Source: Pseudomonas muyukensis (GTDB taxonomy: Bacteria > Pseudomonadota > Gammaproteobacteria > Pseudomonadales > Pseudomonadaceae). From it: DNA of 64,000 nucleotides. The notes under the pieces were generated by a model, which did no database searches, was not told where the DNA came from, and saw nothing but the letters and a program-made list of their open reading frames with translations. The stretch's first letter is position 1. Each line of letters begins with the position of its first letter. A program made the translations under genes and the position numbers. Below are positions 21,882 through 26,251 of this stretch, piece by piece. The DNA lies in NCBI RefSeq assembly GCF_019139535.1, contig NZ_CP077073.1, forward strand, positions 571,501 through 635,500, read 5' to 3'.

Positions 21882-22589
21882 ATGAAGCCGTTCGCCTCAC
21901 GTTATCTGCTTGTTGCCGCGTTTTCCCTGTTCCTGGCTGCGTGCTCCAGCACCCCGGCAGAGCAGCCGAGCGCGCCTGCCCAGCCGGATGCCTGGCAACA
22001 GCTGGAACAAAGCATCGCCAGCAACGAGCTGGCCACCGCCGAGGACCAGCTGGCCGCCCTGCAAACCCAGGCCCCGGACGATCCTCGGGTCGAGCCGCAC
22101 CAGCGCCAGCTTGCCGAGGCCTACCTGCAACGCAGCCAGATCGTCCTGCAAAAGGGCGATGTCAACGCCGCGGCCACTGCCCTGGCCCGTGCCCGCGCGC
22201 TGATGCCGCAGGCACCGGCGCTGACCGGCGGCGACGCCATGGCCCAGGCACGCAAGGCCGAGCTGGAAAAAGCCGAGGCCGCGCTCAAGGCCGCCGAAGC
22301 CAAGCCCAAGGCGCGCCTGATCGACCCGAGTGCGCCATCTACCGTGGTGGCGTTGCAGACTACCGACAGTCGCGCCCTGCGCCGGCAGCTCGATGACATC
22401 GCCGCCGACGTGGTGAGCTACCAGTGCGAGGTGGTGTTCCAGGTGCCGCGCACCCAGGATGCGCCGTGGCTCAAGACCCTGCTGGAGAAACGCGTGCGCA
22501 AGCTCGACAGCGGCTTCGCGTTGCAGCAGACGCATGAGATCCAGCGTTCGCTGCCGGCGCAGGTGGTGCTGGTTCCGCACCGGCAGTGA
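21882..22589 (+). CDS. lipoprotein with TPR-like helical region
   Basis: 235 residues. A lipoprotein signal (FSLFLAACSST) is followed by a helical Ala/Gln-rich stretch (about 35-140) resembling tetratricopeptide-like repeats (AEDQLAALQTQAPDDP; YLQRSQIVLQKGDVNAAATAL). The C-terminal domain contains ADVVSYQCEVVFQVPRTQDAPW and VRKLDSGFALQQT. The same gene follows znuB in P. aeruginosa (PA5502, hypothetical) as far as I remember. Function unknown; a periplasmic or outer-membrane scaffold role is a guess. It ends 8 bases before the REP that received the insertion sequence. Confidence 0.75.
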   Translation: MKPFASRYLLVAAFSLFLAACSSTPAEQPSAPAQPDAWQQLEQSIASNELATAEDQLAALQTQAPDDPRVEPHQRQLAEAYLQRSQIVLQKGDVNAAATALARARALMPQAPALTGGDAMAQARKAELEKAEAALKAAEAKPKARLIDPSAPSTVVALQTTDSRALRRQLDDIAADVVSYQCEVVFQVPRTQDAPWLKTLLEKRVRKLDSGFALQQTHEIQRSLPAQVVLVPHRQ

Positions 22590-22596
22590 GATTGCC

Positions 22597-22635
22597 GGGG
22601 CCGCTGCGCCCCATCGCGACACAAGGCCGCTCCTA
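22597..22635. repeat. REP unit, left half interrupted by the insertion sequence
   Basis: GGGGCCGCTGCGCCCCATCG followed by CGACACAAGGCCGCTCCTA. It is a standard REP unit truncated after CCTA, where the IS begins. Its missing ACAGG-type end is found at 24069-24074 on the other side of the element. Confidence 0.9.
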
Positions 22636-22638
22636 TGT

Positions 22639-22649
22639 ATGGACTCGCC
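22639..22649 (+). repeat. subterminal inverted repeat, transposase 3' side
   Basis: ATGGACTCGCC, an exact inverted copy of 24053-24063. Three bases (TGT) separate it from the element end. Confidence 0.9.
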
Positions 22650-22884
22650 TACATTGTCTACCTGCTTTTCGAACAAGGTTACCCGGTTGCATCTATGTAT
22701 CAGGCCTATTCGAGGAAGCTTGGTGCTTCTGGCCAACATCGGGTGAGCTCGCAGCATGCCCATTACATTCAGGCCTCTTGGGCCGGTAGGAGCGTAGGCA
22801 TTGATCCGCGACGGTCTTACCTAGGGTCGATGTTCACTAGCAGGGGCTGGGGCGCTCGGCACCCCGGTGGCGTAACGCTGTAAG
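22650..22884 (-). ncRNA. candidate bridge RNA region of the IS110-family element
   Basis: The 3' non-coding end of the element, where IS1111-group elements are known to encode their bridge (seeker) RNA. On the transposase strand a stem ATGCC/GGCAT (22797-22801 with 22756-22760) closes an internal loop capped by a small hairpin GGCC-CAAGA-GGCC (22784-22772). The 5' side of the loop holds CGCTCCTAC (22794-22786), exactly complementary to the target strand GTAGGAGCG that spans the insertion point. The 3' side includes CCTG, matching the other target flank. Further downstream ATACATA (22700-22694) matches the joined donor ends ACA|TA. The order target loop then donor loop is that of known bridge RNAs. 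Exact RNA ends are unknown. Confidence 0.65.
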
Positions 22885-23988
22885 TCAGCGGCTCATGGCG
22901 GGCTCCTGACGATCATCCGGTTGACGTTGGTAAACCTGCTCTCCTTGTAGCAGCACCCAAATGATGCGCAGATTTCGATTAGCCAGTCTGATCGCCGCCT
23001 CCTTGCGACCAAGCCGAGTTAACCATCGCAAGAGGCGGCGATCGTCTGGCTGATCGGAATCAGGCTTCAAATGGCTAAGAACCGCGTGCGCACCCTGGAT
23101 CATCATGCTGCGTAAGTAGCCGTCACCTCGCTTGCTCATCTTGCCCAGCCTGACCTTCTTTCCACTGCTGTGCTGGTCGGGCACCAGGCCAAAGTAAGCG
23201 GCAAACTGTCGAGCATTGGGGAACCGCGAAGGTTCAGGCTGCTTGGCCAGCATCGCTGTGGCGATGATCGGGCCGACACCGCGTATCGTCATCAGGCGGC
23301 ATGCGACCTTGTCGGCCCCCGCCGCTGTTTCGAGCCGTCCTGTCAGGACGGCGATACGCTCGCCCAGATAGCGCCATTCGGCGAGCAGTTCATCGAGCAA
23401 TTCACGCAGCAGATCTGGTAATGGTTGGGTCGCATCTTCAAGAATCCGCGACACACCTTGGCTGACGGCAAAATCGCCTTGCGCCAGGGCGACGCCCTGT
23501 TCCAGTAACAGGCCGCGGATCTGGTTGCCTAGCGCGGTGTGGCGCCTGACATAGCCTCTGCGAGCGCGGTGTAAAGCTTGAATCGCCAAAGCGGCAGTGC
23601 TCTTGATCGGCACCGCAGCAATGCTGGTATCCCGGCCTGCGCGCAAGATGGCATGGGCGTCGTTACGATCATTCTTGGCACCACTGCGGTGCTCCGCCAC
23701 TCGCTGCGCGGGCAGGATGCGGACTGGGGTGCCCTGCGCCTGGAGCAAACGCCCCCATGCTTGAGCGCCGGGGCCACTTTCCATCAGGACCGTCACGGTG
23801 GGTGGCAGCTTGGTCAGGAACGCGTGAAAGGCTTCACGGGATTTGATTCGATCTTCGTAGATGACGCGCCCGGAGCCGTCATCTCCGGCCACCTGAAAGA
23901 CTTGCTTGGCCAAGTCGACTGACAGGTGTTGGCAAAGCGTTACATCGGTGGAAGACAGGGAATTGCGCTTCGTCCTATGCTTGCTCAT
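22885..23988 (-). CDS. IS110-family transposase (DEDD recombinase)
   Basis: 367 residues, intact. The N-terminal RuvC-like domain has D25 (LSVDLAKQ), E70 (LMESGPG), D107 and D110 (KNDRNDAHA), the DEDD tetrad. A helical middle follows, then a C-terminal Tnp_20 domain with IRGVGPIIATAML and FAAYFGLVP followed by QHSSGKKVRLGKMSKRG, which holds the candidate nucleophilic serine. In this family the enzyme uses an element-encoded RNA to pair donor and target DNA. No frameshift or truncation is seen, so the element may still be active. It is oriented opposite to the upstream lipoprotein gene and the same way as katE. Confidence 0.95.
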   Translation of the reverse strand: MSKHRTKRNSLSSTDVTLCQHLSVDLAKQVFQVAGDDGSGRVIYEDRIKSREAFHAFLTKLPPTVTVLMESGPGAQAWGRLLQAQGTPVRILPAQRVAEHRSGAKNDRNDAHAILRAGRDTSIAAVPIKSTAALAIQALHRARRGYVRRHTALGNQIRGLLLEQGVALAQGDFAVSQGVSRILEDATQPLPDLLRELLDELLAEWRYLGERIAVLTGRLETAAGADKVACRLMTIRGVGPIIATAMLAKQPEPSRFPNARQFAAYFGLVPDQHSSGKKVRLGKMSKRGDGYLRSMMIQGAHAVLSHLKPDSDQPDDRRLLRWLTRLGRKEAAIRLANRNLRIIWVLLQGEQVYQRQPDDRQEPAMSR

Positions 23989-24052
23989 GGTCTCGCCCTC
24001 GCTGCCGTTGGCTTCTTAGAACGCCACCGTGGCACTGTGATGCCTCGGCGGG

Positions 24053-24063
24053 GGCGAGTCCAT
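24053..24063 (-). repeat. subterminal inverted repeat, transposase 5' side
   Basis: GGCGAGTCCAT, inverted partner of 22639-22649, seven bases (CCGATTA) from the element end. Confidence 0.9.
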
Positions 24064-24070
24064 CCGATTA

Positions 24071-24106
24071 CAGGTGAGCGCGAAATCCCTGCAGGAGCGG
24101 CCTTGC
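24071..24106. repeat. remainder of target REP and truncated second REP
   Basis: CAGG completes the interrupted left REP. After GTGAGCGCGAAATCC comes CCTGCAGGAGCGGCCTTGCT, the head of an inverted REP that stops where katE ends at 24107. The original site was therefore an inverted REP pair with only the first arm complete. Confidence 0.75.
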
Positions 24107-26251
24107 TTACGCCGGCACCCCCTCGGCCACCGCCTCCCGCGCCCACACCCGATGTGCCTCGACTGCCTTGAAGAAGGCCTCGAAGGTTTGCTGATCATCG
24201 CCCAGCAGCAAGCCGGCATCTTCCTGCAGGCCCAGCTTGTTCAGCAACAGCTTGGCCTCCAGCGCCAGCCCCATGGGCTTGAGGTGCTTGTAGGCCTCGA
24301 GCAGGAAGTGCTTGGCCACGCCGCTGTTCTCCAACGCTTCGAGCGACGCCTTGCCAGCCGGCACCCAGACCCCGTCGAACATCACCGACGGCATGCCCTG
24401 CATCGACGCATCCACCGCCAGCACCTTGCCCCGCGCGTCCTTCACCGGCGCAGAAGTCGGCCCCAGCAGCATTGGCCGGGCGCGTTGGGCCTCCAGCGCC
24501 TTGACCAGCTTGTCGACACTTGCCGCGTCCACGCCATCGGCCACCAGCACGGCGACCTTGCGCCCACTGATACCGATGTCGCCGGGGTGGTTCATCTGGC
24601 TCAACGCCTTGGACTGCCCTGGCTTGCTGCCCTTGACCTTGACCGTCCCGGCCTTGGGCGCCGGCAGGCCAAGGTTGGCCGCCACCGCCGAGGCCAGCTT
24701 GAGGTCGATGTTGGCCAGGATCTCGTTGACCGTCCGCGCGCGGATCGCTTCACGCTCCACCTTGCCCAACTCGAAACTGTAGGCCTTGATGATGTGCTGC
24801 TGCTCGGTGGCGCTCATGCTGTGGAAGAACAGCCGCGCCTGGGAGAAGTGATCGCCGAACGACTCGCTGCGCTGGCGGATCTTGTGCGCCTCGATACGCT
24901 CCTGGTAGCTCTCGAAACCGCCATCGCGCGGGGCCGGCGGGGTTTCCCTGGGCCAACCGCCATCGATCGAATTGGGCTCGTAGGAAGCCCGCCCCCTGTC
25001 GATGGTCATGCGGTGCATGGCATCGCGCTGGCTGCTGTGGTTGGGAGCGATGGGCCGGTTGATCGGGATTTCGTGAAAGTTCGGCCCGCCAAGACGGCTG
25101 ATCTGCGTATCGGTGTAGGAGAACAGCCGCCCTTGCAGCAACGGGTCATTGGAAAAGTCGATGCCGGGCACGATATGCCCCGGGCAGAAGGCGATCTGCT
25201 CCACCTCGGCGAAGAAGTTGTCCGGATTGCGGTCGAGCACCATCTTGCCCAACGGCGTTACCGGCACCAGCTCCTCGGGGATGAGCTTGGTCGGGTCGAG
25301 CAGGTCGAAGTCGAACTTGTGCTCGTCGGCCTCGGGGATGATCTGCACGCCCAGCTCCCATTGCGGGTAGTGCCCGGTCTCGATCGCGTCCCACAGGTCG
25401 CGGCGATGGTAGTCGGTGTCCTTGCCGGCCAGCTTCTGGGCTTCGTCCCACAGCACCGAGTGCACGCCCTGGCGCGGTTTCCAGTGGAACTTGACGAAAC
25501 TGGCCACGCCATCGGCGTTTATCAGCCGGAAGGTATGCACGCCAAAGCCTTCCATCATGCGCAGGCTACGGGGGATGGCGCGATCGGACATGGCCCAGAT
25601 CACCATGTGCGCCGACTCCGGCACCAGCGAGACGAAATCCCAGAACGTATCGTGGGCCGAGCCGCCGGTGGGCATCTCGTTGTGCGGCTCGGGCTTCACT
25701 GCGTGGACAAAATCCGGGAACTTGATCGCATCCTGGATGAAGAACACCGGCATGTTGTTGCCGACCAGGTCGAAGTTGCCCTCGTCGGTGTAGAACTTCA
25801 CCGCGAAGCCGCGCACGTCACGCACCGTGTCGCCGGAGCCGCGCGGCCCCTGCACGGTGGAAAAACGCACGAACACCGGGGTGATGGCGTCCGGGTCCTG
25901 GAGGAAGCCGGCCTTGGTCAGTTCGGCGTGGCAGCCATAGCTCTGGAAGTAGCCATGGGCACCGGTGCCACGGGCATGGACGATGCGCTCGGGGATGCGC
26001 TCATGGTCGAAGTGGGTGATCTTCTCGCGCATGATGAAGTCTTCGAGCAGCGATGGCCCGCGGGCACCGGCCTTGAGGCTGTTCTGGTTGTCGGCGACCT
26101 TGACCCCCTGGTTGGTGCGCAGCGCCTGGCCGCTGGCGTCGCTGCGGAAGTTCTCCAGGCTCTGCAGCTTGGCGTTGGTGTTGGCCCGATCGGGTGTCTG
26201 GGTGCCCGCCACCTGGCTTTCCCGTGGCTCCGACTTGTTCTTGCTGGCCAT
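24107..26251 (-). CDS. katE: large-subunit catalase HPII
   Basis: 714 residues, the long class II (HPII) type. The catalase core (about 70-560) has the catalytic histidine in [14 protein letters not shown], the asparagine in [11 protein letters not shown], and the haem-ligand tyrosine in [17 protein letters not shown]-terminal flavodoxin-like domain (about 575-710; [16 protein letters not shown]) is characteristic of HPII. It degrades hydrogen peroxide, mainly in stationary phase in relatives, where RpoS controls it; I did not identify that promoter here. The stop lies inside the remnant of a REP. The next gene upstream, metN, is divergent with 224 bases between. Confidence 0.96.

Follow-up and report, generated by a model that had tools for sequence, protein, structure and literature searches.

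A REP-targeting IS1111-group element of Pseudomonas muyukensis and its predicted bridge RNA, whose target guide varies with the landing site

What directs an insertion sequence to one particular repeat of its host genome? The question is raised by an element in the window, that is, the whole stretch of 64,000 nucleotides of Pseudomonas muyukensis DNA analysed here. An earlier note on this DNA had proposed that the element recognises REP sequences through a 9-base guide in an RNA encoded in its non-coding end.

The element, its recombinase and its site

The element and its surroundings comprise the following features.

22636..24070, minus strand: complete IS1111-group insertion sequence of 1435 bp (boundaries from aligning the genome's three copies and from the 7/3-bp rule for the bases beyond the sub-terminal inverted repeats)
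24053..24063, minus strand: ATGGACTCGCC, sub-terminal inverted repeat of the left end, beyond which lie 7 bp, TAATCGG (copy alignment)
22639..22649, minus strand: GGCGAGTCCAT, sub-terminal inverted repeat of the right end, beyond which lie 3 bp, ACA (copy alignment)
22885..23988, minus strand: recombinase (transposase) gene, 367 aa (PF01548 and PF02371; NCBIfam NF033542)
22628..22635, minus strand: right half of the target, TAGGAGCG, host DNA (copies and joined flanks)
24071..24074, minus strand: left half of the target, CCTG, host DNA, of which the last two bases alone are well conserved in relatives

The genome contains three copies of the element, and all three occupy the REP-like repeat site G|TAGGAGCG. 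Their alignment gave the left end TAATCGG-ATGGACTCGCC and the right end GGCGAGTCCAT-ACA. The sub-terminal inverted repeat of 11 bp lies within the 11-13 bp of the IS1111 group, and the 7 and 3 bp outside it follow the rule of 7 bp left and 3 bp right described for these elements (PMC11187229). The long non-coding region of the group is represented by a non-coding end of 249 nt downstream of the transposase gene. The window copy is flanked by CACCTG|TAGGAGCGGCC, and joining these flanks restores an uninterrupted repeat; together with the occupation of one site by all three copies, this clean rejoining indicates a specific target and precise insertion. A search for the empty site via the flanking gene found no orthologous REP-bearing empty site. 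Four relatives with a printed intergenic region (L135-L138) keep both neighbouring genes with neither IS nor REP between them, and therefore show absence, not an empty REP. The repeat that was hit is one of a facing pair, CAAGGCCGCTCCT being present in inverted orientation in the left flank (22585-22635 and 24071-24120), an arrangement which we take to resemble BIME-type REP pairs.

The recombinase scored 284.5 bits against NCBIfam NF033542, "IS110 family RNA-guided transposase" (cut-off 140), and PF01548 and PF02371 correspond to the DEDD recombinase domain and the C-terminal S(t)G-motif domain of IS1111/IS110 proteins. Residues D25, E70, D107, D110 and S275-G276, presumably the catalytic positions, were invariant among 21 relatives. 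The closest protein among the matches listed, 97% identical, belongs to Pseudomonas entomophila. At E 1e-60 or better, and with the own genome included each time, matches were obtained in 21 of 398 genomes of the genus sample, 8 of 390 of the order sample and 5 of 369 of the class sample. The plasmid search gave no match at E 1e-60 and at least 5000 records at E 1e-15, all below 60% identity among the matches listed; the phage search gave 3 records. ISCro4 and IS621 were the sole relatives found by a PDB sequence search with the recombinase, the IS621 structure 8wt6 being only distantly related to it (E = 1.3e-5).

The target loop and the choice of site

The predicted RNA and its target loop consist of the following parts.

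22683..22821, minus strand: predicted bridge RNA (seekRNA) core, comprising a target loop and a donor loop (from the fold shared by 18 relatives and the covariation of its pairs)
22797..22801, minus strand: ATGCC, 5' strand of the stem that closes the target loop (consensus fold)
22786..22794, minus strand: target guide CGCTCCTAC, the 5' arm, complement of GTAGGAGCG (guide-target covariation)
22772..22784, minus strand: cap stem-loop GGCC-CAAGA-GGCC (consensus fold)
22762..22767, minus strand: TGTAAT, 3' arm of the target loop, a handshake candidate made up of TG of the left flank, core TA and the AT also present in the element's left end
22756..22760, minus strand: GGCAT, 3' strand of the stem that closes the target loop (consensus fold)

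The stem ATGCC/GGCAT, the guide CGCTCCTAC and the cap GGCC-CAAGA-GGCC were all found on the minus strand where the earlier note had put them, and CGCTCCTAC is, as it had read, exactly complementary to GTAGGAGCG, which straddles the insertion point. Taken alone, this match is suggestive but inconclusive, because 114 of 20,000 sequences made by dinucleotide shuffling of the 249-nt non-coding end also contain an antisense match of at least 9 nt spanning the insertion point (about P = 0.006). Chance at that level has to be reckoned with when a scan reports striking matches. It leaves room for an explanation in which the recombinase itself reads REP DNA, through its sequence or a cruciform, and the complementarity of the non-coding end arose by coincidence; REPs are palindromes, and members of other IS families insert there too (PMC1525189).

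The behaviour of guide and target in relatives was used to evaluate both readings. From 122 loci, 64 relatives with a transposase identity of at least 55%, both ends and flanks were kept, and 58 were dropped as distant, truncated, short of flank, or without the transposase gene or one end. Six of those kept duplicated insertions from another source, leaving 58 distinct insertions, the window's three included. The guide was located via anchors in the surrounding RNA and not via its match to the target. Across transposases 62.6-74.5% identical, guide and target varied in step: they agreed at 9/9 positions in 52 of the 58 insertions, at 8/9 in five (L025, L066, L107, L110 and L127) and at 5/9 in one (L113, four mismatches). 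Eight guide variants were present, each with a complementary target. Five guide/target pairs were CGCTCCTAC/GTAGGAGCG, CGCTCTTAC/GTAAGAGCG, AGCTCCTAC/GTAGGAGCT, AGCTGCTAC/GTAGCAGCT and GGCTCCTAC/GTAGGAGCC, and the pairs represented by single insertions were CCACCCTAC/GTAGGGTGG, CCAGCCTAC/GTAGGCTGG and CCAACCTAC/GTAGGTTGG. Three of the nine guide positions were invariant (positions 7-9, at the CTAC end). When insertions were linked at 95% nucleotide identity into 15 clusters, each represented by its commonest guide and target, 133 of 135 positions agreed and 13 of 15 clusters were exact; permuting guides among clusters, a procedure that ignores relatedness among them, gave a mean of 108.3 and a maximum of 127, and 0 of 100,000 permutations reached 133. 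Even inside one 95% cluster, elements with AGCTGCTAC lay at GTAGCAGCT in 6/6 cases (all in one genome) and those with AGCTCCTAC at GTAGGAGCT in 10 of 11. The recognition of REPs by a 9-base guide is thus supported, changed guides being found at correspondingly changed sites. Elements with the same guide, which might have been expected at unrelated targets if the proposal were wrong, shared the same 9-mer. The loop thereby carries the covarying, target-complementary guide that characterises seekRNAs and bridge RNAs, and since loop and landing site change together in relatives, the RNA very probably picks the insertion site.

A few individual loci deserve separate description. L025 (G046) is a degraded copy in which guide and site disagree, the guide being AGCTGCTAC and the flank GTAGGAGCT. 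On its right, L113 (G254:C1:1791000-1794000) borders not a REP but the tail of an element of the same kind (TAGGCCTGATACATAGATGC...), with a second copy about 550 bp off, probably a rearrangement. Two distant relatives carry guide-like complements, of 10 nt in L083 (CTAACAATCT) and of 7 nt in L168 (TAACAAT), to GTTAG-type flanks, which resemble the attC targets described for ISKpn4 (PMC11187229).

The abundance of the sites was determined by counting motifs in whole genomes on both strands. G128 has 222 copies of GTAGCAGCT, against 11-31 in the seven further genomes counted, while GTAGGGTGG occurred 106 times in G1141, 125 times in G254 and 5-19 times in the other six. A weak case is GTAAGAGCG, with 35 copies in its host G263 and 5-28 elsewhere. 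The commonest motif of the host is not always that of the guide, as in G000, with 487 copies of GTAGGAGCG and 671 of GTAGGAGCC. The 125 copies of GTAGGGTGG in G254 concern the target motif of the Stutzerimonas element L044; the guide of G254's own element matches GTAGGAGCC. Guide and abundance were compared at the last base, using insertions at GTAGGAGC[G/C/T] with at most five copies scored per genome; L107 (G138) and L113 (G254) were excluded, as they do not lie at such sites. The guide's last base was carried by 5/5 copies in G181 (site share 0.28, P = 0.0019) and 4/5 in G274 (share 0.28, P = 0.024), and by 3/3 in G000 (share 0.42, P = 0.072), 4/4 in G254 (share 0.61, P = 0.14) and 4/4 in G138 (share 0.85, P = 0.53). 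The insertions therefore followed the guide rather than site abundance at P < 0.05 in two of the five genomes, the other three being not significant. Coincidence cannot make a guide vary with its target across 15 clusters, nor can it track the last base within one host, as in G181, and a recombinase that reads REP DNA by itself is accordingly very improbable. The earlier note had further suggested that such a guide would explain why REP palindromes are IS hot spots. The guide accounts for the use of REPs by the window element and not for REPs as hot spots in general; REP association has been reported for elements of five IS families (PMC1525189).

The position of the loop was upheld by the conserved fold. 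The RNAalifold consensus of 18 RNAs keeps the guide in an internal loop, closed by ATGCC/GGCAT and capped by GGCC-loop-GGCC, on an outer stem with compensatory changes in three of its five pairs. In the whole consensus structure 98.9% of cells pair (shuffled mean 95.0, 0/500 as high) and 6 of 29 pairs are changed on both sides (shuffled mean 2.4, 0/500; 0-2 when slid by 1-3 columns), the structure having been taken from the same alignment as was tested. Further pair types were not distinctive (11 against 9.3 shuffled, 75/500). The closing stem is conserved rather than proven by covariation, because four of its five pairs never vary. Folding of single sequences was rejected as evidence: the minimum-energy fold of the window's 139-nt core alone is without the target loop, which the centroid has, and its stability does not exceed that of shuffled sequences, 148 of 200 of which were as stable or more so (z = +0.76). 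Folded by itself, the 68-nt target loop gave z = -0.62. Rfam gave no match up to E = 1 over 22300-24400.

The 3' side of the loop was also re-evaluated. The letters CCTG, which the earlier note had matched to the left flank of the target, are present at 22773-22770, but their role as a guide for that flank is unsupported, CC being paired in the cap stem. In the window's own genome, CCTG adjoins two of the three copies and GATG the third; over the 58 insertions, position -4 carries 0.16 bit and -3 carries 0.55 bit, -1 is G in 58/58 and -2 is T in 47/58. CCTG as a left guide was rejected on the low information at -4 and on the varied flanks found beside one identical 3' arm. The core is carried by the 3' arm GTAAT, not by CCTG. 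The guide order is that of IS1111 elements, the top-strand complement (22794-22786) preceding TGTA (22767-22764), with a short bottom-strand match consisting of TG and the core.

The predicted donor loop and a possible handshake pattern

Besides the target loop, a second, donor-binding loop is predicted in the RNA at 22742-22693, with two arms.

22738..22742, minus strand: CCGAT, 5' arm of the donor loop, complementary to TAATCGG of the left end (33 types, 0/3000 permutations)
22693..22700, minus strand: 3' arm of the donor loop, ATACATAG, with right end ATACA, core TA and G as in the target; handshake candidate

For the 5' region, the longest matches to the left end summed to 156 over 33 types, against 127.1 with left ends permuted (0/3000 as high); some single matches, for example in L021, fall outside the arm, since a region of 60 nt was searched. 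The 3' anchor, defined as the last five bases of the right end and sought 40-110 nt before that end, was present in the window's element and in 32 of 38 distant ones, 33 of 39 in all, scrambled 5-mers giving a mean of 2.6 and a maximum of 9. The RNA thus holds the donor-binding bases matching the element ends that are found in seekRNAs and bridge RNAs. These matches bear on the view that the non-coding end captured a piece of host REP by recombination, the resemblance reflecting shared ancestry without any guiding. The guides do resemble the REPs of their own hosts, but the match ends at 9 nt within conserved RNA and sits at one fixed place in a conserved internal loop, and the second loop has its donor-end matches without any REP; such capture is extremely unlikely. 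Just as little credence can be given to a downstream RNA that regulates transposase expression without selecting targets, as suggested by the approximately 180-nt sense RNA downstream of the transposase gene of the REP-inserted IS110-family element ISPpu9, which anneals to an antisense RNA (PMC8450116), for a regulatory role gives no reason for the RNA to covary with DNA outside the element.

Once strands have been exchanged in IS621, bases adjacent to the guides pair with the other of the two DNA partners (PMC11208158). Covariation among 26 IS1111 types suggests that the bases following the core in the IS1111 3' arms tend to behave like these handshake guides. At +2 and +3, the donor loop agreed with the right flank of the target in 37 of 52 cells (26 types; permuted mean 19.9, 0/20,000) and with its own left end in 18 of 52 (1202/20,000). 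At +3 and +4, the target loop agreed with the left end in 28 of 34 (17 types; permuted mean 22.3, 37/20,000) and with its own right flank in 8 of 34 (3630/20,000). Agreement with the non-cognate partner only, set against the cognate only, stood at 14 to 1 (+2), 8 to 2 (+3) and 9 to 0 (+4) in the donor loop, and at 9 to 1 (+3), 14 to 2 (+4) and 3 to 7 (+2) in the target loop, whose +2 tends to follow its own target. Cells matching neither partner numbered 11 of 26 at donor +3 and 17 of 26 at donor +4, and the exceptions were L095 and L155 at donor +2 and L017 at donor +3.

Element ends in these counts were set by the published 7/3 rule, not by empty sites. Seventeen loci were dropped: nine without inverted repeats of at least 9 bp, two with short flanks and six without the donor-loop anchor, the last being the misses in the 33 of 39. 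Nine of the 26 types had no target-loop anchor and stand outside the target-loop counts; in the near clade, a fixed motif defined the target-loop arm. Under a harder collapse that also drops L154, L165, L168, L171 and L173 as having doubtful ends, the signal weakened to 21 of 30 for the donor loop (15 types, 7/20,000) and 19 of 22 for the target loop (11 types, 598/20,000). The covariation is stronger for the donor loop than for the target loop, where it leans on few variant left ends (L156, L161, L165 and L176) because left ends are mostly xAAT. On this evidence it is on balance probable that handshake guides are present in the bridge RNAs of the IS1111 group as a mirror image of those in IS621, the target 3' arm consisting of left target, core and own left end, and the donor 3' arm of right end, core and right target, so that each loop would spell a recombinant junction. 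A description of handshake guides in IS1111 elements was not found in a literature search that covered mainly openly accessible journal papers.

Proposed mechanism and relation to known systems

Guide-target, donor-guide and helix covariation, together with the insertion junctions, form the observed basis of the reading proposed here. We hold with high confidence that the element encodes a bridge RNA (seekRNA) downstream of its recombinase gene, whose target loop would pair with the REP site and whose donor loop would bind the element ends, the recombinase joining the circle to the REP at the TA core. Transcription, the RNA-protein complex, the circular intermediate and strand exchange would proceed as in published relatives. 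By the published cycle, excision would give a circle whose junction forms a promoter, and the RNA would arise by transcription through the transposase gene. The candidate promoter is as follows.

22655..22660, minus strand: -35-like TAGACA, promoter-like with CATAAT (22637-22636 joined to 24070-24067 in the circle) at a 17-bp spacer

The site TAGACA-17-CATAAT matches the consensus at 10 of 12 bases in the circle and at 8 of 12 when integrated; 31 of 5000 mononucleotide shuffles score as high, and the circle scored above the integrated form in 16/16 elements examined. The 9-nt arm CGCTCCTAC would pair with the top strand of G|TAGGAGCG, while in the donor loop CCGAT would pair with the left end and ATACA match the right end. 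With one loop on the REP and the other on the circle junction, the recombinase would exchange strands at TA, and the excised circle would be joined to the REP at the shared TA core.

Genome-engineering tools are being developed from RNA-guided recombinases of the IS110 family, whose IS1111 branch is less well understood than IS621. The present clade constitutes a natural experiment, with near-identical RNA, eight guides and matched landing sites, and it suggests how REP-dwelling elements track the diverging REP families of their hosts. If the handshake reading is true, it would provide design rules for IS1111-type systems and unite both groups mechanistically; the reversed guide order would then mean that the DNA is turned by 180 degrees relative to the RNA and that the opposite strand is exchanged first.

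Among known systems, IS621 of E. coli shares the two loops with two guides each and the REP target; its circle-junction promoter and handshake guides have candidate parallels in the window element (PMC11208160, PMC11208158). In contrast to the window element, IS621 belongs to the IS110 group, has its RNA upstream of the gene and the guide order reversed (PMC11208160, PMC11208158). ISPpu9 of P. putida KT2440 is likewise a REP-inserted IS110-family element with an RNA downstream of the transposase gene, similar by description, but that RNA was read as regulatory, unlike the one proposed here (PMC8450116). Bridge RNAs with target and donor loops were predicted from element ends for ISPpu10, ISPa11 and four others, and potential donor-binding bases were noted in many IS1111 orthologues (PMC11208160); the window element is likened to the ISPpu10 and ISPa11 predictions by description, not by sequence. 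SeekRNAs were shown for four IS1111 elements, REP-targeting ISPa11 among them (PMC11187229). With ISPa11, ISEc11, ISKpn4 and ISPst6 the window element shares the IS1111 anatomy and a non-coding RNA downstream of the transposase gene, and with the seekRNA elements of this family a top-strand complement 5' of the bottom-strand match (PMC11187229). It is also like ISPa11, again by description and not by sequence, which targets REPs of P. aeruginosa. For those four elements RNA and transposition data are reported, whereas the window element is known here from sequence alone (PMC11187229). The seekRNA paper names target matches (PMC11187229), to which the window element adds donor-end matches, as predicted in PMC11208160. 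Natural retargeting has been reported for ISEc11 and ISXne4 (PMC11187229). This kind of element has been known since 2024 as seekRNA or bridge RNA systems, a REP-targeting one included, and the window element joins them with a clean natural retargeting series.
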